A stretch of DNA of 23,545 nt, taken from positions 1 through 23,545 of the IMG/VR virus record IMGVR_UViG_3300026456_000004, one strand, 5' to 3'. Position numbers and translations under genes: made by a program. This document shows, in pieces, positions 1 through 21,800 of this stretch; positions within the stretch are counted from its first letter, which is position 1, and every line of letters begins with the position of its first letter. Origin of the DNA: a virus. The notes under the pieces were generated by a model that saw nothing but the letters and a program-made list of their open reading frames with translations, did no database searches and was not told the origin of the DNA.

Positions 1-2126
1 TGGCCATTGACGGTCGTTGATGTACCTACCGCGCCCAGGTTGGCAAGTGCACCCGCCGCCGTGGTTGCGCCCGTGCCACCCTGCCCGACGGTCAGAGGCG
101 TGGTGAGGCCCGATAGTGATGTGATGCTGGAGTTGTTCCCGGATGTGACGAGCGTAGAAGATGCCGGGATTGGCGTACCGTTGACGCTCGTGCTACTCGA
201 CAACGCCAACGGCAGATAGTTGGCCGGAATAGGTGTTGAAGAGTTGTACGCACCGCCCCAACTCGTGCCACTTGTCCAGTAGGCAATACCAGCCGTGCTG
301 GGCCAAACCATCGATCCACCCGTGATGCAAGTTCCGCCGGCGTCATTCAGCGTAATCGTGGTCCCTGAAACAGCGAAGTTTACGCAATCACCATTCGTGA
401 TTCCTGTCTTCGGCAGAAAAGCTGCGTAAAGGTCCGAGCCGTTGACCCACCCGTGCCAGTTAAGGCTGGTCGTGTCGTACCCGATCTCGCCGTTGGCCGC
501 GCTCGCGTAGCCTGCTCCAACCGGAAGTTTGATCTGCGCAAGAGCCGAAAAATCCTGCAATCCGGTGGTGTAGGTATTAGCCTGTCCGGTGCCTACTATA
601 TTTCCTGTCGGAGCGGTGAACGAAGTTCCCCACGCGCTCCCGGTTGATAGTGGAACCCCCGCGCCGGGGTAGATCATCGATCCGCTGCCGGGTGCAATCC
701 AACTCCTGACCCCAGAAGTCGTTGATGATAGAACGTATCCATTCGTGCCGGGATTGCCAAGTGACGCCTCCGCTCCAAACGAATGGTAGTCGAATGCAAC
801 CACTGCGCTGCCATTGAACGTGCTCCCTGGAGCCGCACCGCCAGTCGTCGCCGCAATAAGCACATTCGCGGTTGTCTGCGCTACACAATTCACTCCCTGT
901 GGAGTATAAACATACCCCGGAGTAGAGCAACCTGCCAGTCCACCGACGTAGGAATTGAAAAGTGTTCCGAGTTGTGCAGCCGTCGCCACTGTATGAGGAC
1001 TGCTCCCGTTTCCGTAGAGTATCCCTGTCAGCGTTCCCGCCTCACCTGTCCCTCCCTGAAGAGCCGAGAGGGGAGTCGTTAGACCCGTCAATGATGTAAT
1101 GTCGGCATTGGCACCACTGTCCGCCGGAGTATACCCAAGAGCCGCCTGCTTGCCGTTAAACGTGGTCCAATCGGTACTCGATAGCCATCCATTCACAGAC
1201 CCCGAAGATTGCGTCATCGCTATGTTCGGAGTCGTCCCCAAGGTAGATGTAACCGGAGCCGTTGCTGTGACAGAGGTGACCGCCCCTCCCGCCGCACACA
1301 ATCCGTTTCCCGACGTACAGACTTCACTCCCGTTGTACTGATGCTTCCCACCCCCACTCGTTACCACGTTGAGGTTCGTGGCCGCCGGCTGTGTGACCGT
1401 CTGCGTTCCTGAAGGATTGAGAGCCACACCACCAAGGTTCGCCAACCCCTGTGCCGCCGTTCCTCCGCCGGTCCCGCCGCCGCTGATCTGAATGATCGAA
1501 GTCGTCCCAGAAATCACCCACGCCGTCCCGTTGTAGGTCAGCACCAAAGGGTTCCCCGCAGCAATCTGGCTGGCTCCTACGTTGTTCCCGCCCTGTGTCA
1601 GAATACTGGCCGCAGCCGCCCCGTTCACCGCCAAAGTCGGGGCAGACCCCGACACCGTTCCTGCCCGGAAGAGAATCGTCATGTTGCTGGTCGGCGCCGT
1701 GGAGGGGGTCGTAGAACATACATAGGCCGTCCCACTCCCTGAAGAGTCTACGCAAGCCAACAAGGAGTTTCCAGTGCTGGCCCCGGACCCTCCATTCACC
1801 ACATACGACCATATCGTTCCTGCTATCGGAGTCACTTGCACCACGTAAAAACTCGGCGATGACAACGTTGGTGCATAGAACGTGTAGTTCCCGTACTGGT
1901 CTGCTGCCGTTGGGTTTGGAGCCGCATGAGATAGAGCGTAGTCGTAGTAGATCGCCGCAGTCGGAGTGCAAGGAGTCCCGGTCGAGGTCACCGCACAGAC
2001 TTGGATAGGGGCAAAGGGAGTCGAGTTCCCCTGATAGTTCACCTGTCCACTGATGACGACCTGACCTGCTGCCGACAGGGAGGAGCCGATAATCATTGCC
2101 ACACAGAACTTCGCCAACCTGCTCAT
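1..2126 (-). CDS. Tail-fibre-like repetitive protein with N-terminal signal-like segment (partial, 3' end outside window)
   Basis: This frame stays open from an ATG at 2126 to the window edge (708 codons). A stop at 2162-2160 bounds it upstream. The N-terminus (MSRLAKFCVAMIIGSSLSAA, then GQ) has a basic start and a hydrophobic stretch like a secretion signal. The rest is rich in Gly, Ser, Thr and Asn, with phrases typical of phage tail-fibre and collar proteins: GGGTAAQGLANLGG near 1450, STDWTTFNGKQ near 1150, ITSLTGLTTPL near 1090 and again near 110, and GQGGTGATTAAGALANLGA near 50. These repeats suggest trimeric fibre modules. No Shine-Dalgarno is seen before the ATG. The gene follows a strong terminator, so it probably has its own promoter. 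A secreted adhesin-like protein is the alternative. The large overlapping ORFs in other frames are composition shadows. Confidence 0.72.
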   Translation of the reverse strand, partial: MSRLAKFCVAMIIGSSLSAAGQVVISGQVNYQGNSTPFAPIQVCAVTSTGTPCTPTAAIYYDYALSHAAPNPTAADQYGNYTFYAPTLSSPSFYVVQVTPIAGTIWSYVVNGGSGASTGNSLLACVDSSGSGTAYVCSTTPSTAPTSNMTILFRAGTVSGSAPTLAVNGAAAASILTQGGNNVGASQIAAGNPLVLTYNGTAWVISGTTSIIQISGGGTGGGTAAQGLANLGGVALNPSGTQTVTQPAATNLNVVTSGGGKHQYNGSEVCTSGNGLCAAGGAVTSVTATAPVTSTLGTTPNIAMTQSSGSVNGWLSSTDWTTFNGKQAALGYTPADSGANADITSLTGLTTPLSALQGGTGEAGTLTGILYGNGSSPHTVATAAQLGTLFNSYVGGLAGCSTPGYVYTPQGVNCVAQTTANVLIAATTGGAAPGSTFNGSAVVAFDYHSFGAEASLGNPGTNGYVLSSTTSGVRSWIAPGSGSMIYPGAGVPLSTGSAWGTSFTAPTGNIVGTGQANTYTTGLQDFSALAQIKLPVGAGYASAANGEIGYDTTSLNWHGWVNGSDLYAAFLPKTGITNGDCVNFAVSGTTITLNDAGGTCITGGSMVWPSTAGIAYWTSGTSWGGAYNSSTPIPANYLPLALSSSTSVNGTPIPASSTLVTSGNNSSITSLSGLTTPLTVGQGGTGATTAAGALANLGAVGTSTTVNG

Positions 2127-2181
2127 AAAAGGAATCGTAGCAAGGTTTGACGTTTTCTTCTACCTGTTTTTCAAATCCACC

Positions 2182-2194
2182 CCAAAATTTGGAC
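2182..2194 (-). promoter_or_regulatory. Near-palindromic 13-mer site, copy 1 (upstream of tail-fibre-like gene)
   Basis: Plus-strand CCAAAATTTGGAC, a copy of a motif found at six places in the window. Here it lies between the terminator at 2196-2231 and the tail-fibre-like gene, where a promoter or operator is expected. The arms CCAAA/TTTGG are complementary, as for a dimeric DNA-binding protein. The function is inferred. Confidence 0.45.
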
Positions 2195-2195
2195 T

Positions 2196-2231
2196 CTAAA
2201 AACAAGAAGCCCAGTCCGAAGACTGAGCTTC
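2196..2231 (-). terminator. Rho-independent terminator after the Ig-like gene
   Basis: On the minus strand an 11-bp stem (GAAGCTCAGTC pairing with GACTGGGCTTC, one G-U) closes a TTCG tetraloop and is followed by TTGTTTTTAG. This is a textbook intrinsic terminator. It separates the Ig-like gene and everything upstream of it from the tail-fibre-like gene. Confidence 0.88.
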
Positions 2232-2250
2232 CCTTCCTGCCGGCGAATGT

Positions 2251-2775
2251 CTAAGCGAATGCGATCTTGATGCTCGAGAGAACCGGAACCGGAGGCGGAA
2301 CAACCGGGATGTTGACCGTGACGGCCTCGACATCGGTCAGCGCAATTCCCTCGGCCGTGGTGAGCGAGGCAGTCAGGTTTGCCACGCCGTTTGCAACCGC
2401 GGTCACGGTGTCGGTGATGCCATCGGCGTTGGGTACACTGGTCGCAAATGCCGAATTGTCGATGGTGAAGGTGACGGGCGGGATGGTCCCCGTCCAAGCG
2501 TTGCCGAACTGGTCAAAGCCGTTGATGGAGGCAATGGTGACTTGGCCGGCGCTGGTGAGAGTGACTGGTCCTTGAACTGACATGAGGTTTTCTCCTTTGG
2601 TTGATGGTGCGGTGAATGCGATTTGGACGAAAGAGAGGCGTGGTTTGAGATGAACAATCTCATCCTCAATACGCCACTGGATGCGTTCCACTTCTTCGAG
2701 ACGGTGGAGAGCTTCACGCTGGAGGCGGAGAGACTCTCTGAGCATCTCCTTTTCTTTGCGAAAAAATCCAAACAT
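2251..2775 (-). CDS. Small protein with N-terminal coiled coil and C-terminal bacterial Ig-like domain
   Basis: 174 aa. The start at 2775 is chosen because GGGAGGAACAGT precedes it; an ATG ten codons earlier has no ribosome site. Residues 1-45 (FFRKEKEMLRESL...) are charged and helical, likely a coiled coil. From about residue 65 the sequence (SAGQVTIASINGFDQFG..., TVTAVANGVANLTAS) resembles a Big_2-type immunoglobulin-like fold, common in phage tail and head decoration proteins. A second in-frame ATG at 2583 follows AAGGAGAAAACCTC, an excellent site, so a 110-aa Ig-only product is likely too. The residues before the second start (SFVQIAFTAP) echo the extreme C-terminus (SSIKIAFA), suggesting fusion of two formerly separate genes. 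A virion surface role is inferred from the fold and the tail-fibre-like neighbour. Confidence 0.7.
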   Translation of the reverse strand: MFGFFRKEKEMLRESLRLQREALHRLEEVERIQWRIEDEIVHLKPRLSFVQIAFTAPSTKGENLMSVQGPVTLTSAGQVTIASINGFDQFGNAWTGTIPPVTFTIDNSAFATSVPNADGITDTVTAVANGVANLTASLTTAEGIALTDVEAVTVNIPVVPPPVPVLSSIKIAFA

Positions 2776-2840
2776 ACTGTTCCTCCCGGCGTAATGATTA
2801 AACACTACACTGAAATTTTAAGATGTTCAATTCAGACCTC

Positions 2841-2873
2841 GTTTCAATCCACACCCCCCACATGGGGAGCGAC
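2841..2873 (-). CRISPR. Solitary type I-C-like CRISPR repeat (single unit, no array)
   Basis: Read on the minus strand, the 33 bp begin GTCGCTCCCCATGT and end GGTGTGGATTGAAAC. The GTCGC start, C-run/G-run stem and GTGGATTGAAAC end are hallmarks of type I-C repeats (known family pattern). The stem CGCTCCCC/GGGGGGTG pairs over 8 bp with two G-U wobbles around an ATGT loop, so the hairpin recognised by Cas5d-type processing is kept. No second copy was found in the window. It sits in a 116-bp gap between the RuvC-like and Ig-like genes, in the sense direction of both, followed by an A/T-rich stretch that could act as a spacer-like 3' part. This matches the layout of phage solitary repeat units that act as RNA anti-CRISPRs; the activity itself is inferred. 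Confidence 0.85.
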
Positions 2874-2891
2874 TCTACAGTAACGGAGCTA

Positions 2892-3437
2892 CTATTCCTC
2901 GAAGAGATTATTTCCCTTCGGCTTCTCCTGCTGGCCGCCGTAGGTCAACCAGCCCCAACGGGCAATAAGCGCACTATCGGACCTCCCGTTGTCTTTCTTC
3001 CTCGTCAGGTACTTGGCTGAGTGCGGATAGTGCTGCATCGCAACCGCTCTGCTGGCATCCTTCTCTTTGGAGCAGCCGGCCATGCAGCGGGCCTTCCACG
3101 TCGCCGGATGAACCGTCTGGTACGGGATAGCCAGAGCAGCCAATATCCCAAGCCAAAGTCCGTAGCCCATTCCGAAGTTGAAAGCTGAGGTGGCGCCCAT
3201 CGTCCGCTCCCCACCTCCCGGCATGGCCTGGACCTTCTCGATCGTCACCATCACCTGCCTACCTGCCGCAGCGTCTTTGAGTACCTGTACCATCCGGTAG
3301 GCATCCAAAACGTGCTTTGTCTTCTTGTTGACCACCACTTCCAAAACGGGAGCATCAAAAAACTGCACTTCGTTCGCCTCTGGATCAAGCGCACAAACGC
3401 AGCCCGTCAATCCCGGATCTATCCCCAAAAATACCAT
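2892..3437 (-). CDS. RuvC-like Holliday junction resolvase
   Basis: 181 aa, RNase H-fold nuclease expected to cut branched DNA intermediates of phage recombination and packaging. The acidic catalytic set is visible: D7 in LGIDPGLTG, E67 in VTIEKVQ, and D149/D154 in KKDNGRSDSALIA, the order seen in RuvC and phage resolvases. The length fits RuvC (about 170 aa). The start ATG follows GGAGGAGGGGAAG. It is preceded by an HNH nuclease gene 12 bp upstream and followed by the solitary CRISPR repeat. The Bet annealase and PD-(D/E)XK nuclease elsewhere in the window supply the earlier recombination steps. Confidence 0.88.
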   Translation of the reverse strand: MVFLGIDPGLTGCVCALDPEANEVQFFDAPVLEVVVNKKTKHVLDAYRMVQVLKDAAAGRQVMVTIEKVQAMPGGGERTMGATSAFNFGMGYGLWLGILAALAIPYQTVHPATWKARCMAGCSKEKDASRAVAMQHYPHSAKYLTRKKDNGRSDSALIARWGWLTYGGQQEKPKGNNLFEE

Positions 3438-3449
3438 CTTCCCCTCCTC

Positions 3450-3779
3450 CTACGGAACGTCGTAGAACCCGCTCCGTCTTGAACCTCGTTGACTGTTGCA
3501 AATCGCGTGAGCCGCAGCTATGTTGAACTGCCGATCGTCTCTCTCTGACCCTCCCGATTTTCTTGGTTTGATGTGGTCCACTGTAGAGTCGGCCCACCTG
3601 AGCGGCAGCTTGCAGATCCCACAGAGCCTTCCCTGCGCCTCCCACGCCACCCGCTTCCGTCTCTGGTACTCGTCTGACCCGGCCTTGCAAAGCAGGTTAC
3701 ACGCCTCGCGGCCGTCCTTGAACACCCGCACTGCAACGGGAGCCTTCTTGATGTCTTTAGGCTTCGGAAACATCGTCAT
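3450..3779 (-). CDS. HNH endonuclease
   Basis: 109 aa. The zinc-binding pair C53-x2-C56 (LCGICKLPL) precedes the nuclease core: STVDHIKPRKSGG (D68, H69) and then FNIAAAHAICNSQRGS (N86, H91, C94), the His-Asn-His arrangement of phage HNH nucleases. Length is normal for a free-standing HNH protein. The ATG overlaps the stop of the upstream gene (ATGA), implying translational coupling; a second ATG two codons in is possible. HNH proteins of this size often assist packaging next to terminase genes, but no terminase is in the window, so the role here may be replication-linked cleavage or homing. Confidence 0.85.
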   Translation of the reverse strand: MTMFPKPKDIKKAPVAVRVFKDGREACNLLCKAGSDEYQRRKRVAWEAQGRLCGICKLPLRWADSTVDHIKPRKSGGSERDDRQFNIAAAHAICNSQRGSRRSGFYDVP

Positions 3780-3970
3780 CCCCTCACCACCTTTCCCTCC
3801 GGCGTGTGCCGCTCAATAATGTGCCATGAAGTTCCCTGTGATTGAACAACACACATATCCCCGGTCATGCGCTCCAGGATCGAGGCGGTGGAACGTGCAT
3901 CGTCCTCCTTCGTGAACGGACGACGCACCGAGTCCTGAGCTACACGACCGTATGGGTACTTTCTCGTCAT
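3776..3970 (-). CDS. Small protein of unknown function
   Basis: 64 aa (MTRKYPYGRVAQDSVRRPF...), basic N-terminal half, no family recognised. Its ATG overlaps the stop of the upstream gene and its own stop overlaps the HNH start, so the three genes form a coupled translation unit. It may be a partner of one of its neighbours; nothing in the sequence says which. Confidence 0.6.
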   Translation of the reverse strand: MTRKYPYGRVAQDSVRRPFTKEDDARSTASILERMTGDMCVVQSQGTSWHIIERHTPEGKVVRG

Positions 3971-4803
3971 GCCGCCTCACTCTGCCGCTGGGAAGCCTGC
4001 TCGAGAGCGCCAGCGAAGTCCAGCACCAACTCGTCCAGCGTGGCCTCCAGTTTCTCCACAACCTCCTCCAGACTCGCCCCGGAGTGGATCATAGCCTTGG
4101 CCGACTTCACCTTCTGGACCGCGGTCGTTAGGGTCTCTATTAAACCCACGCTTCCAGTGTGCTCGGCCACCATCGTTTCCAAAACCTTGCCGGTGTTCGC
4201 CGGATCTATCCCAACAGCAACTGCGTAGTGCTTGATCCCCGCCTCCACCGTCCGCATCTGACTCTCAGGCATCGTTGTTTTGAACGTCCTGATGGTCTCC
4301 TTCGTGTCCGAGTCCTTCGCCTTCCCGTGCATCTCCAAGTCCACCTTCGCCTGGAAGTCCTTCAGGGAATCGTCCGACGCCGCCTTCAACCACTCCCGAT
4401 CCTGCCGCTTCTCTTCTGAGAGGTCCGACAGAGCCTTCGCATTGGTCAGCCGCATCGCAGTGAACAACTCTTCAGGAACCCCACGGTAAGCCTCGGCAAG
4501 ACGTATCGTGCTGAACCAGGTACTTTCGCCTACGCCGGCCGCCTCACGCGCCTCCTGCTCGTCCCTGAAGCCCAGCATCCCCCACAAAGACTTCTCCTTG
4601 AGGGCGAAGGCGTGGTAGCCAATCCGAAGGCTGTTCCTCGACTGCAAGACCGACGCCTGCTTGATCTGCTTGTAGTGGAAAGTGGCCTCTTCCTTCCGAG
4701 CCTTGATCTCCTGCTCTTCCCGTTCACGTTGAGCCGGATCAATCTCTGCCGGCTGACCTGTCTTTGTAGCTTTCGGCATTTGTAGAACTTCCGCTATTGC
4801 CAT
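3967..4803 (-). CDS. Phage protein of unknown function, helical, regulator-like
   Basis: 278 aa. The start ATG follows AAGGAGATGAAGT and lies inside the end of the DnaB gene (65-bp overlap). An N-terminal charged helix (residues 20-50, REREEQEIKARKEE) is followed by a segment (LRIGYHAFALKEKSLWGMLGFRDEQEAREAAGVGESTWF) that has the cadence of a helix-turn-helix, as in ParB-like or plasmid/phage regulators. The C-terminal third is helical and acidic (LEEVVEKLEATLDELVLDFAGALEQA). I do not recognise the family with confidence. Overlap with the DnaB gene ties its expression to replication. Confidence 0.7.
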   Translation of the reverse strand: MAIAEVLQMPKATKTGQPAEIDPAQREREEQEIKARKEEATFHYKQIKQASVLQSRNSLRIGYHAFALKEKSLWGMLGFRDEQEAREAAGVGESTWFSTIRLAEAYRGVPEELFTAMRLTNAKALSDLSEEKRQDREWLKAASDDSLKDFQAKVDLEMHGKAKDSDTKETIRTFKTTMPESQMRTVEAGIKHYAVAVGIDPANTGKVLETMVAEHTGSVGLIETLTTAVQKVKSAKAMIHSGASLEEVVEKLEATLDELVLDFAGALEQASQRQSEAA

Positions 4804-6166
4804 ACTTCATCTCCTTCTGAATTGCGTTCTCAAACTTCAACTTCTTCCTGTTGTAAACGCAGGTTACTCGTCCCCGCGTTCCCTCTCTGCTCTTGTCAAC
4901 CATGATCTCAACATCGAGGTCGTCACCCGGATCTCGCTTCTCCGAATCCTCCATCGTGATGATGACGATGTTTTGAGCAGCATGATGGATTGCCGACCCA
5001 CCGTAAAGATCTCCCTTCGTCCGGTGCCTCTTTTTAACGAACCCCTGCTCTTTCGAGAACTGACTGAGCGCAATCACAGCACAGTTCGGTTCACCTTTCG
5101 CCAGATCTCGCAGTCCAAATACCACCCCTCGCGTCTCCTCCGGCCCAACCTTCCCCGGATTTTCCAATAATTGAAGGTAATCCACTGCAATGATTCTAAC
5201 CCCGTGCCGGCGCCGCATCATCTTAGCCCTGGCCCTCAACTTCTGAATTGACAGTGGAGAAGTATCGTCAATCCAGATTGGCAACTTCGCAATCTCCGCC
5301 GAGATGCGTTTCAACTCAGGAACGTGTGTGTGAATGTTCATCAACCGCGGATCTCTCATGTGGTCCGCCGTCAGAATGTCTGACATCAACGGGTAGAGCC
5401 TCTGGAGCAATTTCTCTTTCGGCATCTCGCATGAGAATATCCCGACCGGAATTCCCTCCAATGCGTTCGCTAAAACCATCTGCATCATTGCTTGAGTTTT
5501 CCCGCTGCCGCTGTCGGCCGCAAGTATCGTCAGTTCCCCACCGTAAATCCCCTTCGTCTTCTTGTCGAGGTCTTCAATCCCCCAGGTCATGTCCAGCGCC
5601 GTCTTCTCAAGATTCTGGTTCCGCTTGGAAAGAATGGCCGCTTCAATCGCCCCTACCACCTCCGCTGCACTTATCGCATCCGACTTCTCATCGGCCACCG
5701 ACCGAATCAGCCTCTCCTGAACTCCCTCAATCAGAATGCTGGAATTGATACCCTGCGCCTCGGCTGACTGGTACAGACCCTTACCCACCTCCATCAACAA
5801 CCGGAGCTTCGCCTTCTCTCGAACGATCTTAACGTGCTCCTCGATATTCAACCTGCGAGGGATTCCCTCTGTCAGCCCCGCAAGATACGCTTGGCCTCCT
5901 ACGCTTCCCAACTCTCCGCGCTTGCGGAGAACGTGAGAAAGGGTCACAATGTCCGCGTGATGAACCCCCTCCTCCAGCCCATCCATAATTGAAGCGATGG
6001 CGCCAAAGATGATCCTGTGCGAGTCGAGGCTGAAGTCTTCCGTTGAAAGGTCGCCGATCGCGTCAAAATAGGTATCGTTCTCTATAAGCAACGTCCCCAA
6101 TATAGCGAGTTCTGCCTGCGCGTCCGCCGGCACTCCGCTCCCCAACTGCTTGACTGGCTTCCCCAT
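4739..6166 (-). CDS. dnaB: DnaB-like replicative DNA helicase
   Basis: 475 aa, the expected size for a DnaB hexameric helicase that unwinds DNA at the phage fork. The N-terminal DnaB domain (AQAELAILGTLLIENDTYFDAI) is at residues 16-110. The RecA-like core has Walker A ADSGSGKT at 217-224, Walker B RIIAVDYLQLL at 324-334, the conserved FSCEMPKEKLLQRL at 244-257, and ALSQFSKE later. The start is set at 6166, two bases after the radical SAM stop, with GGAGGG ten bases upstream; the ORF extends 38 codons further but would then overlap the upstream gene. The likely helicase loader is encoded at 7485-7198. Confidence 0.95.
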   Translation of the reverse strand: MGKPVKQLGSGVPADAQAELAILGTLLIENDTYFDAIGDLSTEDFSLDSHRIIFGAIASIMDGLEEGVHHADIVTLSHVLRKRGELGSVGGQAYLAGLTEGIPRRLNIEEHVKIVREKAKLRLLMEVGKGLYQSAEAQGINSSILIEGVQERLIRSVADEKSDAISAAEVVGAIEAAILSKRNQNLEKTALDMTWGIEDLDKKTKGIYGGELTILAADSGSGKTQAMMQMVLANALEGIPVGIFSCEMPKEKLLQRLYPLMSDILTADHMRDPRLMNIHTHVPELKRISAEIAKLPIWIDDTSPLSIQKLRARAKMMRRRHGVRIIAVDYLQLLENPGKVGPEETRGVVFGLRDLAKGEPNCAVIALSQFSKEQGFVKKRHRTKGDLYGGSAIHHAAQNIVIITMEDSEKRDPGDDLDVEIMVDKSREGTRGRVTCVYNRKKLKFENAIQKEMKYGNSGSSTNAESYKDRSAGRD

Positions 6167-6167
6167 T

Positions 6168-6338
6168 TTAGTGGCACCCTCCGCCGCTCGGTGAATGGCA
6201 ACTTCCACCTGAATACTCAACACGATGGCTGGGCTTCTCGCGGAGCTTATTGATGGGCTTCTTGGAGTCGTCTTCCTCAAGCAAACGCTTCGCTAGTTCG
6301 ATAAGTTCTTCCGCCAACTCCCGTTTCGACTTTGCCAT
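6168..6338 (-). CDS. Nested in-frame ORF: candidate 56-aa leader-core peptide
   Basis: Begins at codon 284 of the radical SAM gene, same frame and same stop. The ATG at 6338 is preceded by AAGGAGGAGTT, as strong a site as any in the window, which is unexpected inside a gene. The product would have a charged helical leader (MAKSKRELAEELIELAKRLL) and a Gly/Ser/Cys/His tail (GGSCHSPSGGGCH), the shape of a ribosomally made, modified peptide precursor placed beside its radical SAM enzyme. It may instead be just the enzyme's C-terminal domain. The start signal is seen; the peptide role is inferred. Confidence 0.4.
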   Translation of the reverse strand: MAKSKRELAEELIELAKRLLEEDDSKKPINKLREKPSHRVEYSGGSCHSPSGGGCH

Positions 6339-7187
6339 AACTCCTCCTTGAATCTCCTCCGGTTTTACTTCCAACAATCCAGCCCAATCCGCCGTCAACC
6401 GTCCGTCCGGCTGAACTACCAACTCATAGATCCCATCCCAGTGCTGCGTCGGCTCCATGACGGAATACTTCCAGTTGACCTGCATCTCGCCAACCTGCAT
6501 TCGCGCCACCTTACAGACCGGGCAGGTACTCACATCCCTGAATCCCCAGTCGCGCCCAAACATCTCCATCGCCGGACAATCTTCCATCGAATCGTGGTAG
6601 ATACGGAAGTTGACAGCCGCCAGATTCTTGAAGTTCTTGGAGTAGTCAATGAACTCCCGGCAGAAATTCACAGAAACATCTGGAGGCACCACGCAGTTGA
6701 AACAGATGTCGGCCCATTGAATGTCATCAATCAGGCCGCGAAGTTCTCTGGTTGATGGAACACTCTTCGTCTTGAATATATTCTCGTTGAGAGTATCGGA
6801 GGCGTGGTGACGGCTGATGTTAATATGTTTCACAACTCCAGAGAGGATTACCTCTTGCTTCCGAAGACGAACACCGTTTGTCGTCAGAACAACTTTCGGG
6901 AAACGCTTCTTTCTTTTCCTCAGAACCTCCATCACATCTTCAAGAACCGGAGAGATGGTAGGCTCCCCTCCAGTCACGCTAACGTGCGAAAACTCTTTCG
7001 GTAGAGCATCGAGAATTGCAGCCAGCCGCTCACCAAACTTCATCATCGGAAACTTGTTCGCATCTTGGTCACGGTTCCAAAAGCAGAACTCGCACTTAGC
7101 GTTACATGCCCCTGGTAGCATCACCGAAAGATTAGGAGTCGAAACCAGTAGCTTCGTCGTCCTCTTTGCAATTTTTACCAACCCCAT
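6168..7187 (-). CDS. Radical SAM enzyme, substrate unknown, with Cys/His-rich tail
   Basis: 339 aa. The [4Fe-4S]-binding motif C28-x3-C32-x2-C35 (CNAKCEFC), the SAM-binding GGEP at 73-76 and a TTNG strand at 102-105 define a MoaA-like radical SAM protein. Further Cys pairs at 162/165 and 222/225, plus C176 and C204, could hold an auxiliary cluster. After about residue 280 the sequence changes: a charged helix, then a tail ending YSGGSCHSPSGGGCH. That part carries its own ribosome site (see nested ORF). GGAGGGTTAC precedes the start. The motif spacing is not that of QueE. Neighbours are the helicase loader and DnaB, so peptide maturation, nucleotide modification and protein modification all remain open. 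Confidence 0.88.
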   Translation of the reverse strand: MGLVKIAKRTTKLLVSTPNLSVMLPGACNAKCEFCFWNRDQDANKFPMMKFGERLAAILDALPKEFSHVSVTGGEPTISPVLEDVMEVLRKRKKRFPKVVLTTNGVRLRKQEVILSGVVKHINISRHHASDTLNENIFKTKSVPSTRELRGLIDDIQWADICFNCVVPPDVSVNFCREFIDYSKNFKNLAAVNFRIYHDSMEDCPAMEMFGRDWGFRDVSTCPVCKVARMQVGEMQVNWKYSVMEPTQHWDGIYELVVQPDGRLTADWAGLLEVKPEEIQGGVMAKSKRELAEELIELAKRLLEEDDSKKPINKLREKPSHRVEYSGGSCHSPSGGGCH

Positions 7188-7197
7188 GTAACCCTCC

Positions 7198-7485
7198 TCA
7201 CAACTCGCTTGCTTCGCGCACCGTGCTGGGCCACGGCCAACCTGTAACCGTCCTCAAGCACTCTTCAAACCCCGCCGTAAGCCGTCGCTCGTCAATGTCC
7301 GCCAACGCTTCCACGTAGACCGCTATCAACTGTGGCGTGATCGCCTTCCCTGCTATCGACCCAAACTTCTCCAGCCATGAGCCTATCAGGTCAACCCGGA
7401 TCTGCTTAGGATTGAACTCCTGCGGCTGCAACTGCTGATTGCCTTGCAGCGTAATTGCCTTGCTCCCGCCCAAGCGCTTCACCAT
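7198..7485 (-). CDS. Probable replicative helicase loader
   Basis: 95 aa. GGAGGGAAGC directly precedes the ATG at 7485, so the longer ORF upstream is not used; the gene overlaps the previous one by 80 bp. The C-terminal half (YVEALADIDERRLTAGFEECLRT...WPWPSTVREASEL) resembles the C-terminal segment of phage helicase loaders and DnaB-interacting proteins of the lambda P/G39P type: a short helical repeat followed by a Pro-containing turn and an acidic end. Position just upstream of the DnaB gene supports a loader role. Sequence similarity in such proteins is low, so this is a context-supported guess. Confidence 0.5.
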   Translation of the reverse strand: MVKRLGGSKAITLQGNQQLQPQEFNPKQIRVDLIGSWLEKFGSIAGKAITPQLIAVYVEALADIDERRLTAGFEECLRTVTGWPWPSTVREASEL

Positions 7486-8044
7486 GCTTCCCTCCAATCC
7501 CGTTCGGCATCGTCTTCCCATAGCGGTCCAGCGGCGCTTCCAGATACTCCAGAAGCCTCCCAATCCACAGATACAAAGCCTGAGTCTTCACCACACCCTC
7601 TGACTTGTAACGGTTGCCCAGGGCGCGTCTCCACTCCTCCCGCGTCACTTCCTTGTTCTGCTTGAGCCAACGCTTCACCGCCGCCCCGTCCGCGGAACCC
7701 ATCGTGAATGGCAATCCCTTGTTGACGAATTCATAAGCCTTCTTCACGTCATCCAAGAAGTCCTGCCTACAGGTCGAATCCGATTCCAAAATTTGGACTT
7801 TCTCCGTAGATGCCACTCCCGTCCCCAGAGGCCACTTGTTTTTCGTCTGCTTCCCAATGAACTCCGGACATAGCGTATGCAACTCCCCCATGCCTTCCAA
7901 CATGAGGGATGAGTTGCACGACACCGCCTGACTCAACTGTGCGGTTGTCCAAGACCCGTCGCCGAGCGCGTTCACCGCCACAAGAGCCAACACGCCTCTG
8001 TACGTCAAACCTTCGAGAAAATCACTGTCAATGATTATCTTCAT
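7406..8044 (-). CDS. Probable phage replication protein (replisome organiser-like)
   Basis: 212 aa, start chosen at 8044 after AGGGGTGAGT. Residues 13-75 (LTYRGVLALVAVNALGDGSWTTAQLSQAVSCNSSLM) look like a winged-helix DNA-binding domain. The middle (DVKKAYEFVNKGLPFTMGSADGAAVKRWLKQNKEVTREEWRRALGNRYKSE) resembles a DnaD-like or primosomal helical domain. The tail is rich in Gly/Ala/Gln and likely disordered. A DNA-binding N-terminus followed by helical domains, just upstream of a putative loader and DnaB, fits an origin-binding replisome organiser. One copy of the repeated 13-mer falls inside this gene (7786-7798), where it encodes VQIL. Confidence 0.5.
   Translation of the reverse strand: MKIIIDSDFLEGLTYRGVLALVAVNALGDGSWTTAQLSQAVSCNSSLMLEGMGELHTLCPEFIGKQTKNKWPLGTGVASTEKVQILESDSTCRQDFLDDVKKAYEFVNKGLPFTMGSADGAAVKRWLKQNKEVTREEWRRALGNRYKSEGVVKTQALYLWIGRLLEYLEAPLDRYGKTMPNGIGGKHGEALGREQGNYAARQSAVAAAGVQS
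7786..7798 (-). promoter_or_regulatory. Near-palindromic 13-mer site, copy 2 (inside replication gene)
   Basis: Exact CCAAAATTTGGAC on the plus strand, within the putative replication protein gene. Phage replication origins often lie inside the initiator gene, so an origin-related site is possible; chance retention as VQIL codons is the alternative. Confidence 0.35.
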
Positions 8045-8052
8045 ACTCACCC

Positions 8053-8562
8053 CTATTCAAACCTCGCAAATTCTCCGAAATGCTTCACCGCAGCTTTACA
8101 ATATGCCACATGAGCATCTTGTGGAGTAACAAATCCTCCTAACCCATAACGTCTTCCTTTCACCCTTATCAACGCGACCCATCGCTTCCTCTTTTTATTC
8201 CAATACACACCCTTGAATCCAGATGTATTATCAACCCTTCTGACGGCATTCGCTTGGTTCTGAGATGTTGTCCCTACACGAAGATTTGAATGTCGATTAT
8301 CGAGAGTGTTCTTGTTGTCGATATGGTCAACCTCTCGCAGATCGAACATATCGAGTCCAAGGATTACACGCGCAAGCGGAATCTTGTGTCCGCACTTACC
8401 TCCTCGAAACCATGCAGTAGCGTAAAAACATTTCTTTTTACTGTCTCACTTGGAACCAAGTTTTAGATTGGAACACTTCTCGTAGTCTCCACTGTCAACA
8501 ATGGTAACAAGACCTCTCCCTATCGGCAATTCGTAACACTTCTCATCATCCTTCATGTTCAT
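8053..8562 (-). pseudogene. HNH-AP2 homing-type endonuclease interrupted by in-frame TGA
   Basis: One frame runs from ATG 8562 (or 8556, preceded by CGGAGATGAAC) to a stop at 8053, broken only by TGA at 8448-8446. The first 38 residues (LPIGRGLVTIVDSGDYEKC...) match the usual N-terminus of phage/bacterial HNH-AP2 proteins. After the TGA come FYATAWFRGGKCGHKIPLAR, VDHIDNKNTLDNRHSNLR (HNH core) and an AP2-like DNA-binding region (NTSGFKGVYWNKKRKRWVA...). Homologues commonly carry Trp near the break, and TGG to TGA is a single change. TGA is used as a normal stop elsewhere here, so this is a nonsense mutation or a readthrough site. No ribosome site precedes the first ATG after the TGA (8349). 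Confidence 0.8.
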
Positions 8563-8567
8563 CTCCG

Positions 8568-8665
8568 TTTACGGTCGGAGGAGGCCAGGGAGGATGCCGT
8601 AACACCCTCCCTGGGAGGAGGCGTCCGACTGGGGAGCCGGACTAACCGACATGGGGTGTCGGCTA
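8568..8665 (-). ncRNA. Highly structured leader upstream of the HNH gene
   Basis: About 100 bp without a gene but full of hairpins. On the minus strand, in order: CCGACA-CCCCA-TGTCGG; GTCCG...CGGAC with a 10-nt loop; CCAGGGAGG...CCTCCCTGG, a perfect 9-bp stem with a 12-nt loop; then CCGT-AA-ACGG ending at the HNH ribosome site. No T-tract follows the strong stem, so it is not a simple terminator. It could be a cis-regulatory or self-contained RNA; no known class is recognised. Confidence 0.4.
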
Positions 8666-8671
8666 CAGAGA

Positions 8672-9067
8672 CTATAACAACTCCCCTTCGTCTCCGCAAC
8701 CCGATTCTTTCCCCACTGCCAACTCGATTGAACCCACCCTGTTTTTCCCCACCAACTTCATAACCTGACCCGTCTCCTGGTCGATCACCAGCAACGGTCT
8801 CCGCTTCCCATCATCGTCAATCCGCCATCCAAACAATTCCTCAACCGTACACTCGAAGTACCGCGCAATCTGTACCGCCAACTCTAGTTTCGGGAGGGTT
8901 TGGTGATTCAAAATCTCCCCCGCCAGACTCTTTCCGATACCGAAGATCGCTGCGAAGTCCCGCAAGGTGATTCCGTGCGCGGTGCATATCCTCTGGAGAA
9001 GCGGGGAGTCCCCATAGAACTCCCTCGCCTTCTCGTTGCAGTGTTGGATGTTTGAGCTTCCGGCCAT
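8672..9067 (-). CDS. XRE-family helix-turn-helix regulator
   Basis: 131 aa. Residues 34-80 (ITLRDFAAIFGIGKSLAGEILNHQTLPKLELAVQIARYFECTVEELFG) form a Cro/CI-type HTH: scaffold helix, recognition helix GKSLAGEIL, and the closing ECTVEELFG phrase. The remainder is short and acidic and could mediate dimerisation. The ATG starts one base after the stop of the coiled-coil gene, so the two are co-transcribed. It is one of three XRE-type proteins in the window and a candidate binder of the repeated 13-mer; which protein binds which site cannot be told from sequence. Confidence 0.82.
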   Translation of the reverse strand: MAGSSNIQHCNEKAREFYGDSPLLQRICTAHGITLRDFAAIFGIGKSLAGEILNHQTLPKLELAVQIARYFECTVEELFGWRIDDDGKRRPLLVIDQETGQVMKLVGKNRVGSIELAVGKESGCGDEGELL

Positions 9068-9068
9068 G

Positions 9069-9809
9069 CTACGCCCGGAACGAGGTGGACTCGGTAACGA
9101 TGAGCTTCACGCCAGGATAAGAGAAACTTTCCTTCATGCTCTTCGCCATCTGCCCCAAAAAGCTCTCGTTCGCAACAACCGCCATCAACGGCACTTGTCC
9201 TGCTACTACCGCCGTGACAAGCGCCTTCAGGTCCGTAACCTCGATCTGATAGTTCTTCCGCGCCACGCTTCCTGTCGGCTTGGGCGCCGCGGCCTGAATC
9301 ACCACCGGAGCCGCGATGACCTCCTCCTCCAGCACTGCATCCGCCGCCTCAGATTCCCCCGCTGCTGCGAGTTCAAGCGCCCGTTGGAGTGCATCCTCCT
9401 CCGCCTGCTTCTGAGCCACCTCACGGGCAAGACGCTCTTCCTCTTCCCGCTTCCGGCGCTCCACAGCCTGATACGCCGTTAGCAATCCGCCCAGACGAGT
9501 CTTCTCCGTGTTGTACGGTCCTGTGTCGTCCTTCTCGGCTTGCAAAACCGGCTTCTTGATGTCGTCGATCTGAGACTTCACGCCCTTGAAAAAAGTCTCC
9601 GTCTCCTTCGCCGCCGTCTGAAGCAACCGGCCGTACTGCGTGGCCGTCTCTGCCTGTTCCGTCGTCTCGACGACCGTCAACTTCTTCGACGCCAAAACAA
9701 TCGTCCCGTACTCGTTACGCAAGGCGATACGCTTGGTCTCGTACTCGCCACTCGGTCCAAGGATCTCGATGATCCTCGGCAATGCCAATGCTGTTGCTGC
9801 TGTCCCCAT
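9069..9809 (-). CDS. Coiled-coil phage recombination-block protein (DUF1351-like?)
   Basis: 246 aa with GAGGAGGAGTAATC before the ATG. Residues 48-165 are a long charged helix (ETTEQAETATQYGRLLQ..., ERRKREEEERLAREVAQKQAEEDA), an extended coiled coil. An Ala/Val/Pro linker follows, then a compact C-terminal domain (NYQIEVTDLKALVTAVVAGQVPL...ANESFLGQMAKSMKESF). Proteins of this design lie next to Bet/RecT and exonuclease genes in many phages (DUF1351 and relatives), which matches the position here; the exact family is uncertain. A scaffold or DNA-end-protection role in recombination is only inferred from context. Confidence 0.6.
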   Translation of the reverse strand: MGTAATALALPRIIEILGPSGEYETKRIALRNEYGTIVLASKKLTVVETTEQAETATQYGRLLQTAAKETETFFKGVKSQIDDIKKPVLQAEKDDTGPYNTEKTRLGGLLTAYQAVERRKREEEERLAREVAQKQAEEDALQRALELAAAGESEAADAVLEEEVIAAPVVIQAAAPKPTGSVARKNYQIEVTDLKALVTAVVAGQVPLMAVVANESFLGQMAKSMKESFSYPGVKLIVTESTSFRA

Positions 9810-9811
9810 GA

Positions 9812-10477
9812 TTACTCCTCCTCTTGATTTCTGAACTTCGCCAATTTTGCGTTGACTGCCAGATTCGCCGCCGCCAACAGGATAATGAAGTTACTCTTCG
9901 CCTTCAGAGTGTCTACCCAGAATGGAGTAACTCGCCCATCTTTGTCAACCTGAAGAGCGCATCCAACGTAAACATCGCCCTCCAGCTTCGGTGCCCCTCC
10001 CGTGTAAGCCCCCGTCTGCCATGCCCAAGTCTCTGAAGCCTTACTGCCGGTCTTCAGATCGAGGATGCAGGGCCGACGCTTTCCTTTGTAGATCAAACTC
10101 CCACGATGGTCGAGAGTTCCACCAACCCGCATTCCGTTGAGGACGATGATCTTCTTCTCCTCCACGGCTAAAGGTTGATACTCGACCAACTTCAACCAAC
10201 TTTCAATGCCGACAACCGCTGGGATGATTTCATCAGGGCAGGATTCCCAATCCAACTTCCCGAAGACGAGATACTCGACAGCCTTGTGAACGGCGTTTCC
10301 AAAACCGCGCTTCCACTCCAAAACGTCGGGGGCAATCATCGAGAAGTCGCTCAGGCCAAGAGCCCCGAAGACGCCCGTAACCGAAGGAATCACTACCCCT
10401 GACGAATCACGATAACAATGGTTCGATTCCTGATAGAATCCTCCCTCGATTGCTTGTCCCCACGCCTCACTCCCCAT
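9812..10477 (-). CDS. PD-(D/E)XK nuclease, RecB/Cas4-like recombination exonuclease
   Basis: 221 aa. Motifs of the RecB-type nuclease fold appear in order: H64 in GNAVHKAVE, D123 in VGGTLDHRG, D140-x-K142 in CILDLKTG, and Q154 in WQTGAY. It should resect DNA ends to give single strands for the Bet annealase encoded upstream, like the lambda Exo/Bet pair. Start at 10477 is preferred because GGAGG lies eight bases upstream; ATG 10483 is possible. The ribosome site itself overlaps the repeated 13-mer at 10489-10501, so a protein bound there could influence expression of this gene. Confidence 0.87.
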   Translation of the reverse strand: MGSEAWGQAIEGGFYQESNHCYRDSSGVVIPSVTGVFGALGLSDFSMIAPDVLEWKRGFGNAVHKAVEYLVFGKLDWESCPDEIIPAVVGIESWLKLVEYQPLAVEEKKIIVLNGMRVGGTLDHRGSLIYKGKRRPCILDLKTGSKASETWAWQTGAYTGGAPKLEGDVYVGCALQVDKDGRVTPFWVDTLKAKSNFIILLAAANLAVNAKLAKFRNQEEE

Positions 10478-18802: not shown

Positions 18803-21800
18803 TTACTTATACCAACGCTCCGGCGCAGCTTGCATACCTTTTTTCTTTTTCGGCGCAAGTTCCTCTTCCGTAAGCGGCTCCTGGCGCAACAGCGACAACG
18901 TGTCCCTGGTCATGCGTAACACATTCTTCCCGGTTCTCGGCCAGAACGATCCCGGCTTGCCCTTCAACTGCCGCTCTCGACTGATGGCTAACGCATAGAT
19001 TTCCTCCGCAGTGAGCTTCATCGGATGCAGCACCGTGTCTGTCCACATCGGCCCGATAGTCCCCTCTGCTTCATCCTCAAGGAGATACGTTCCCATGTCC
19101 TTCGCTTTATCTAGGCTCGGCTTGTCGTCGATCGCTAGATTTAGGAAAGCGTCTGCATACCGCTTCGTTCTTTCCAAAGCCCACTGAGCGCAAATGCCGT
19201 CAATGTAGATCTTCAGGAACGTCGCCGCAGGATGCTCCTCCATCCCGTCAAATTGCGATAGGTATTTGTCCCACGAATCCTCTGTGTGCTGCTTGCCCAT
19301 CCCCCACTGTGCGACACGGTGAACCCCGCCCTTCGCCGCGGCTGAAGTTCCCTGCAATATCTGCCCCATAATCGGAGAAACAAGCGCCACGTATGCCAAA
19401 GGTCTAAGGTTTCCGTAAACCATCACCTCGTCCCACAGATGCTCTCGAAGCACGTTGTACGCCTTCGTGGAGAATGACCCAAGAGACCACGCTGCCCTGG
19501 CCGCTATCGCAAAATTCTTGTCAAGTGTTGTCAGTCCCTCTCCAGATACCCTCTTTCTTGACAGTGCAGGCATCTGCATAGGGTTCTCAGAGAACATCGA
19601 CTCATCTGTGAACGCAACCTGGGCTAGTTTGTAATCCTCCTCATTCCACTTCCCGGTCCTAACAGCCTCATCAATCGCGTGATCTCCAATGAGGAAGCTG
19701 TTCTTGATAAGACGCCGCGCTCTCTCCGCGGTATTGCCACCTTTCTTCAGGTCTCCCATAGCGTACAGGTCAAGATAAGACTTCGCCGCCCTGCCGGAAA
19801 TCATCCTTCCCATGTTGTACATATACTCAAATCCGGTCCACTTAAAAAGCGCGTGTTGACTGCGAGTTTCCGGCATTGCCATAACAGCCGGATCAATCCC
19901 GTGCATCACTATGCCGTTGAAGTAACTGTACTCCTTCACGTTTTTCCAGTTTGCCGCCAAATCCACTATCGCCCTTGCATACGGCATATAGTGGCCGGTC
20001 TTCGCCATAATCGCCGCCCCGTTGGCTATATGGAACGGCAACTTCGTAACCGAAAATGGGAACATCTTCGTCGCAGTCTCAGCAGCCGCCAAACGATTGT
20101 ACGTCTTGCTCATGGGGCTATCCCAATTCTGCGGTGTGAACATATAGCCGAACATGCCCTCTACATCCGTCCGGGCCTGCTTGTTCGGGATCTTTGCAAT
20201 CTCCTTCTTCAACTTCCCAAGGTCCGCTCCAAACTCTTTTTCGGTCGCCATCGACTTTGCGAACTGCCTGAAGTAACTGTCAAGCGCCTCATAGTCCTTC
20301 TTGATGAACGGGAAGTTGACTTCGTTCGTCCACTGGGTGTTGCCCTGCATAGGTGCCCTCAAACGATCACGTTTGATAAGGTCGTATGCTTTGTCATCCG
20401 TAATATCGGTCCTGCCCTCCTCTTTGAGTTTCTTGGCAATAAGTTCCTTGGCCTTCAGTTCGCTGAACGTCCCTCCCATAAGCTCCCTGAGAGTGTAGGT
20501 CTTATCTCCATCGGTGAACTTCAAGTCCCAGTCTGCAATACGCGGCATATAACTCGGATCGTCCATGAAGTCCTTCCACGACACAACCCGACCATCTGGG
20601 GTTATCACCGCAAGATTTCCCTCGGCTCCCATTTGGTGAATCTTCGCCATGAACTCTCTGAGTTTCCCTGCCGCCTTGTTGATCGCAGGGTCAGACACCG
20701 CTCTCTTGTTCATCACTACATCGAAGAGGTCACGCATCACCCGCTTGTCTGTGTGGTCAAGTTTTGCCTCCTGCATAATCTTTGTGAAGTCCGTTCGCAG
20801 GCCGGCAAGATGAACTTTTTGTCCCGCATACCACGCCCGCGTCTTTGTGACGAGAATCCTTCCGACAGGCTCAATGTGGTTCTTCTTGTAATGTGAAGCG
20901 AACTGTCTGTCCTGAGATTGCAGGTTGTTCTCTTGAGAACTGAGCAGACCCAGGGCGCCAGTGTACTTCTCGTCCTTCACTGGCTCTGGAGCAGGCTTGA
21001 ATTTGTCATTCTTAGCCCGTTCCTCGTCCGTCATCCCAGATTCTTTTTCAAGCTCCTTCTCGCTCTTCATCCGGGTGTAACCGCCTGTAGCGTTGTCCTG
21101 CTCGAACCCCATGCCCTTCAGGTGCATCTGTACGGTGTCTCGCGCTACAGCTTCCTTGTCCACTCCCTCCGGCGCGGCCTTCGCCACTTCCTCGGCCCTC
21201 ACAGCCGTCATGGTGATCTCTTCGTGGGGGATCTGAGGGTTCGCCGCCGCCTTGTCCGCCGCCGCGTTCACCGCCCGCCGGATGCGAATGTCCTCAATCG
21301 TCAAAGGTCTGTTCGGTGGCTCCCACCGCTTCGGCTTCTCCTGATAGAGCGTAGCCCAGTCACTTCCCTTCCCGCCGCCGGACATCTCTACCTGCATCCC
21401 CTTGTTCTTTGCCTCTTCCGCGTTCGGGAAGGTGATCGAACTCCAGTTGTCGAAGTTGACCTTGCGCTTGCTGCGGACTTGGAATCCTTGAGCATCGACT
21501 TTTATTTCGTTGCCTTGGTCGAACGCCATCATGTCCTGATGTTCGCGCATCTTCTCTTCGTCGGAGTAGTTCGACATGACCGAAGCCAATGAATCTCTAT
21601 CTCCTAGAACCGCCGCGCTTAACGCCCTCATGCGAGGCCCAATCTTGGTTGACATAAGGCGAATATCCGGCTCTGAGTCTGTCGCAAGGAATACCGCCCT
21701 CGCGTTCGACTTCACGCCAAGCCGCCACGTCCTCGCCAATGATTGCTCAAGCAAGATACCAGAATACGGTGGTCCAAGGAATATCGACAACCGCGGTTTA

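Follow-up and report, generated by a model that had tools for sequence, protein, structure and literature searches.

A solitary type I-C CRISPR repeat between two phage genes: a candidate RNA anti-CRISPR carried in an operon

What does a single CRISPR (clustered regularly interspaced short palindromic repeats) repeat do between two genes of a presumed soil phage? The question is raised by positions 2841 to 2873 of the IMG/VR virus record IMGVR_UViG_3300026456_000004, whose 23,545 bases are here called the window and where an original prediction had seen a candidate RNA anti-CRISPR (Racr). The observation of the lone repeat is almost certainly real. As judged from sequence comparison, it is a genuine solitary type I-C repeat with the tested properties of the solitary repeat units (SRUs), and a plausible operon-borne Racr candidate of an already described class.

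Identity of the repeat

The element comprises 33 bp, lies on the coding (minus) strand of both flanking genes and is predicted to fold into a hairpin (-14.0 kcal/mol) whose 8-bp stem, closed by a 4-nt loop, contains the two G-U pairs G4-U21 and U6-G19; the stem pairs keep probabilities of 0.62-0.93 when folded within 300 nt of the presumed transcript. The hairpin is followed by the 11-nt 3' end of type I-C repeats, finishing in ATTGAAAC (handle TGGATTGAAAC). The repeat begins 18 nt past the stop codon of a RuvC-like gene (at 2892), the next start codon (at 2775) being 65 nt beyond it. The sequence GTGGATTGAAAC occurs once in the window at up to one mismatch; near the element no direct repeat was found and, within 250 bp and at 2 mismatches, no 3'-end motif. 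None of the window proteins scanned could be assigned to a cas or known anti-CRISPR gene. Length, strand, stem, wobble pairs, single copy, intergenic phage-borne position and lack of cas genes were thus all reproduced as first described.

The nearest true array repeat is GTCGCTCCCCATGCGGGGGGCGTGGATTGAAAC, present in 165 copies in the Chloroflexota metagenome-assembled genome JPNG_maxbin.019, with 31/33 positions identical (94%), full 33/33 coverage, 50.1 bits and an E-value of 4.8e-10. The two mismatches are C14T in the loop and C21T in the stem. Array repeats of Acidobacteriaceae follow with 30/33 positions (91%, 42.1 bits), and the stem register is identical in all host repeats folded. A relaxed form of the repeat, scanned across one genome per species (GTDB), gave 85 stretches. 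Cas5c is the repeat nuclease of type I-C; it was identified (TIGR01876) in 5 of 6 genomes with such repeats, in at least four of them on the array-bearing contig itself. The assignment to type I-C, for which the original prediction had set a bar of about 80% identity, therefore holds at 94%. Chance is excluded by the two-mismatch array match together with the dinucleotide shuffles of the window, none of which (0/100) matched the nearest array repeat within 3 mismatches. In Rfam a CRISPR direct-repeat family was matched below threshold only (CRISPR-DR9, 19.6 bits against a cut-off of 45), and comparison with isolated phage records gave a chance match of 17 nt only.

An SRU has to match a known repeat with identity and coverage of 90% or more and to score 41.1 bits or more (PMC10651486), and the window repeat lies above the identity and bit values when scored on the array repeats collected here, in place of the repeat database of that study. 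By ORF-based gene calls (ORF, open reading frame) it is intergenic, and a direct-repeat and motif search, used instead of the local-alignment filter of SRUFinder, identified no further repeat, complete or partial, in the 100 bp on either side.

The repeat as a candidate decoy within an operon

The reading we hold to be rather likely is that of an operon-borne type I-C Racr, in which the repeat, within the mRNA of the RuvC-resolvase operon, would compete for Cas proteins as an RNA decoy. It draws on the intact hairpin and 11-nt handle, the identity with array repeats, the passing of the SRU cut-offs, a layout like that of the proven RacrIC1 and the sense bias of the class. We infer each of its steps, namely transcription, processing, Cas binding, inhibition and the existence of a type I-C host. 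The solitary repeat would be transcribed as part of the operon mRNA; where the host has a type I-C system that fits the repeat, its Cas5c would attach to the hairpin and cleave behind it. Cas5d (Cas5c) cuts type I-C repeat RNA so that an 11-nt 5' handle is left and the hairpin is kept as 3' handle (PMC5965380); from the handle of these products the cut is predicted directly after the 3' arm of the stem. The RuvC mRNA would be left with no 5' handle and with a 3' hairpin to which Cas5c stays bound; the RacrIF1 product likewise lacks the 5' handle, and it gathers Cas7 (PMC10651486). The downstream RNA would start with the 11-nt handle and lack the 3' hairpin. Since both products would be incomplete guides, both could tie up Cas5c and Cas7c in competition with the true ones.

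Solitary type I-C repeats were also searched in viral contigs by two scans; related flanks were grouped into independent loci, gene calls were crude (longest ORFs) and all counts refer to the matches listed. The set comprises 73 independent loci; at 56 of these the repeat lies outside all called ORFs of 80 aa or longer. Where the flanking genes are co-directional the repeat is sense in 30 cases and antisense in 10 (p 0.002), and where an upstream sense gene is present 17 of 41 repeats are no more than 30 nt away from its stop codon. A promoter-like site was identified at 9 of 80 solitary repeats (4.7 expected from shuffles) and a terminator at 5 of 80 (0 in one shuffle); the window repeat has neither. 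The sense bias and the position just after stop codons argue that these units work as RNA, many of them within an mRNA, and therefore favour a function as part of a message, this being no proof for the window repeat.

Several other loci show features of their own. The related phages L016 and L029 share a sigma-70-like promoter and the repeat, and differ by a 79-nt terminator-bearing stretch starting exactly at the repeat end. Two loci (L012 and L025) belong to one 20.8-kb viral contig, IMGVR_UViG_3300032156_001598, which has two identical solitary type I-C repeats, one on each strand, at a distance of about 13.6 kb. In the viral contig L020 the 60 nt upstream of the solitary repeat are identical to those before a repeat close to one end of the Desulfobacteraceae contig L066; this could be a leader that was captured, or else a piece of host DNA under the wrong label. 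A Blautia contig (L090, 3523-3555, minus strand) contains a TTGACA box, a solitary type I-C repeat and a 16-bp inverted repeat, in this order, and looks from this arrangement like a prophage Racr unit. Two viral contigs carry short type I-C arrays with a spacer matching their own contig elsewhere (35/35 nt in L028 and 30/31 in L143).

A wider reading of the survey, which we consider doubtful, is that phages mostly carry their solitary type I-C repeats at the 3' ends of mRNAs and do not make them as separate small RNAs, host Cas5c turning normal messages of the phage, in the window that of the Holliday junction resolvase, into Cas-capturing decoys and cutting the operon as well. If so, the dose of anti-CRISPR would follow the expression of early genes, and the downstream gene would be sensitive to whether type I-C is present. 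The survey is possibly the more useful part of this work: it points to operon-borne decoys without a promoter of their own and suggests the native message context, rather than an isolated small RNA, as the setting for such units.

The decoy reading has several points against it. A scan of 1,400 bases around the repeat gave neither a promoter-like nor a terminator-like site, whereas native RacrIF1 has its own promoter and strong expression (PMC10651486), and none of the neighbouring genes was identified as an acr or another anti-defence gene. Comparison of 1,350 type I-C spacers with the phage and its relatives gave short chance matches only. A divergent relative, a 79-kb contig (L248) reached via a DnaB search, shares with the window the gene order RuvC, small ORF and tail-like protein, with identities of 81% for RuvC, 78% for DnaB and 80% for one exonuclease; its gap after RuvC (62 bp) is without a repeat and none was found across the whole contig, so the repeat is accessory and was dispensable in that lineage. 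The exact element was found in four contigs in total, the window and three others, which are the same phage (99.6-100% identity across 3.9 kb) and show no difference in the gap on which selection could be judged.

The original prediction had also taken the stem, kept while its sequence drifted, as a sign of selection on RNA structure. This argument fails: the closest host repeat (L038, GGGGGGCG arm) itself has the U6-G19 wobble and U21 was found in a genuine Oscillospiraceae array (L057), so the wobble pairs are not phage-specific, and among the four contigs there is no variation to compare. What stands of the candidate RNA anti-CRISPR is its type I-C kind and its solitary, intergenic, sense position on a phage, with RacrIC1 as precedent (PMC10651486), which make it a fair Racr candidate; the drift argument and the guide argument (below) do not stand.

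Alternative explanations

The repeat may instead be a passive relic, gained through off-target acquisition or when the phage recombined with a host array, and intact because it is young, with no function. This is unlikely, although it agrees with the absence of the repeat from the syntenic L248, with the lack of a promoter or terminator and with 2 of 83 distinct solitary repeats elsewhere that have perfect flanking duplications of 33-34 bp, by which non-functional origins or assembly loops do exist. Random insertion, however, would not be expected to give the sense excess of 30 to 10 and the clustering after stop codons across independent loci, the window repeat has no flanking duplication and no leader, and the same sequence is present in four contigs. 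An origin by Cas1-Cas2 insertion with target duplication was rejected, no duplication being found at the window site, and by eye there was no leader similarity of the window repeat to host arrays.

The two duplications were identified in contig L031 (4825-4923), with a solitary type I-C repeat between two copies of the same 33-bp sequence, and in contig L197 (8729-8829, minus strand), with one between two copies of the same 34-bp sequence inside a transposase-like frame (IS3 type by eye). The upstream copy in L197 is preceded by TTC, a type I-C protospacer adjacent motif. Both look like insertions that duplicated a target as long as a spacer; Cas1-Cas2 integrating off target, or a loop in the assembly graph between an array and its protospacer, would explain them equally well.

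A second alternative, which we consider improbable, is a Cas5c-dependent processing site, at which host Cas5c would cut between RuvC and the next gene and thereby alter the expression of the latter or signal the presence of type I-C. The position between two co-directional genes and ahead of the next start codon, the intact hairpin and handle and the similar positions of many solitary type I-C repeats of the survey would suit such a site. The downstream ORF, however, has no recognised role and L248 keeps the gene order without the repeat. To our knowledge there is no example of a Cas5c-dependent processing site in a phage mRNA.

The repeat could also be a mini-array of one repeat, the bases after it being a spacer that guides the host Cascade against a rival phage; the original prediction had offered this as a second possibility. 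The intact handle would allow a 5' end like that of a CRISPR RNA, and viral mini-arrays of such use exist (PMC11656645). The second repeat that would form the 3' end is absent, the 65 nt after the repeat gave weak and partial matches only among 50,697 phage records and nothing meaningful elsewhere in the window, and the first 38 nt match none of the collected type I-C spacers. The guide idea has no support and this explanation is very improbable. That the phage uses the repeat to integrate into a CRISPR array of its host is scarcely credible, with no integrase recognised beside the repeat and no integrated copy seen, and because the repeat sits inside an operon that integration would split.

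The phage and its comparison with known systems

The features of the locus are collected in Table 1. Other genes of the window include a DnaB-like helicase, a RecT-like annealing protein, exonucleases, HNH nucleases and part of a very large helicase-like protein. Homologue searches with RuvC and the downstream ORF returned the same phage only. A host search by RuvC, RecT and terminase gave no close match (distant ones only for the last two), and the 4-mer composition leans weakly to Acidobacteriaceae with type I-C arrays.

Table 1. Features of the repeat locus (window positions)
Feature	Position	Strand	Description
Solitary type I-C CRISPR repeat unit, candidate RNA anti-CRISPR	2841..2873	-	33 nt, GTCGCTCCCCATGTGGGGGGTGTGGATTGAAAC
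Stem 5' arm	2864..2871	-	8 bp, CGCUCCCC; RNA fold
Stem 3' arm	2852..2859	-	GGGGGGUG, wobbles U6-G19 and G4-U21; RNA fold
Predicted 5' handle	2841..2851	-	11 nt, UGGAUUGAAAC; same as in type I-C array repeats
Intergenic gap with the repeat	2776..2891	-	116 bp; identical in three other contigs
RuvC-like Holliday junction resolvase, upstream gene	2892..3437	-	181 aa; PHROG 1770, E 1.6e-33
Downstream ORF	2251..2775	-	174 aa, ATG at 2773-2775 after GGAGGAAC; matches no known family

Two further observations concern the rest of the window. A radical SAM protein (PF04055; 6168-7187, minus strand) lies in the replication operon and resembles prokaryotic viperins (PADLOC pVip, E 4.6e-12). The sister contig L138 contains a helicase-like ORF of 3,268 aa (67-9873), of which 18803-23545 (minus strand) of the window, ended by the contig edge, is roughly the C-terminal half; the first 2.4 kb present are 99.8% identical and the remainder is diverged, in a recombinant-like pattern.

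The closest relatives of the repeat, those of JPNG_maxbin.019 and of Acidobacteriaceae, have the stem register and the 3' end in common with it, but sit in arrays and in genomes encoding cas genes. In viral CRISPR mini-arrays the repeats enclose one or two spacers, which usually target a virus (PMC11656645). The window resembles them in presenting a host-type CRISPR repeat in a virus without cas genes; however, it has one repeat and no target, whereas a mini-array has at least two repeats flanking a spacer and a spacer matching a related virus.

The SRUs are the nearest class. The viral ones catalogued number 2,103, with IMG/VR3 among the sources, and the tests of that study covered nine candidates of different CRISPR classes (PMC10651486); the window repeat may already be in that list, for instance under the contigs IMGVR 3300022872_000012, 3300030044_000210 or 3300028866_000072. 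As with RacrIF1 and the other SRUs, it stands alone between genes, is 90% or more identical to true repeats and scores above 41.1 bits. It would differ from RacrIF1 in its processing, for in type I-C Cas5c stands in place of Cas6 and the 11-nt handle stays on the downstream product. With two promoting arguments corrected (the wobble pairs are not specific to the phage and the guide has no target), the repeat contributes one more type I-C Racr candidate, from a phage lineage not in culture.

A close counterpart is RacrIC1, a type I-C Racr of a Bifidobacterium prophage that was shown to work, 11 nt after acrIC5 and co-transcribed with it (PMC10651486). There the gene in front is acrIC5, whereas in the window it is a RuvC-like resolvase. 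Both are solitary type I-C repeats of phages, in the sense direction and right behind a gene (11 nt in RacrIC1 and 18 nt in the window), and for this reason the window repeat is plausibly co-transcribed as RacrIC1 is.
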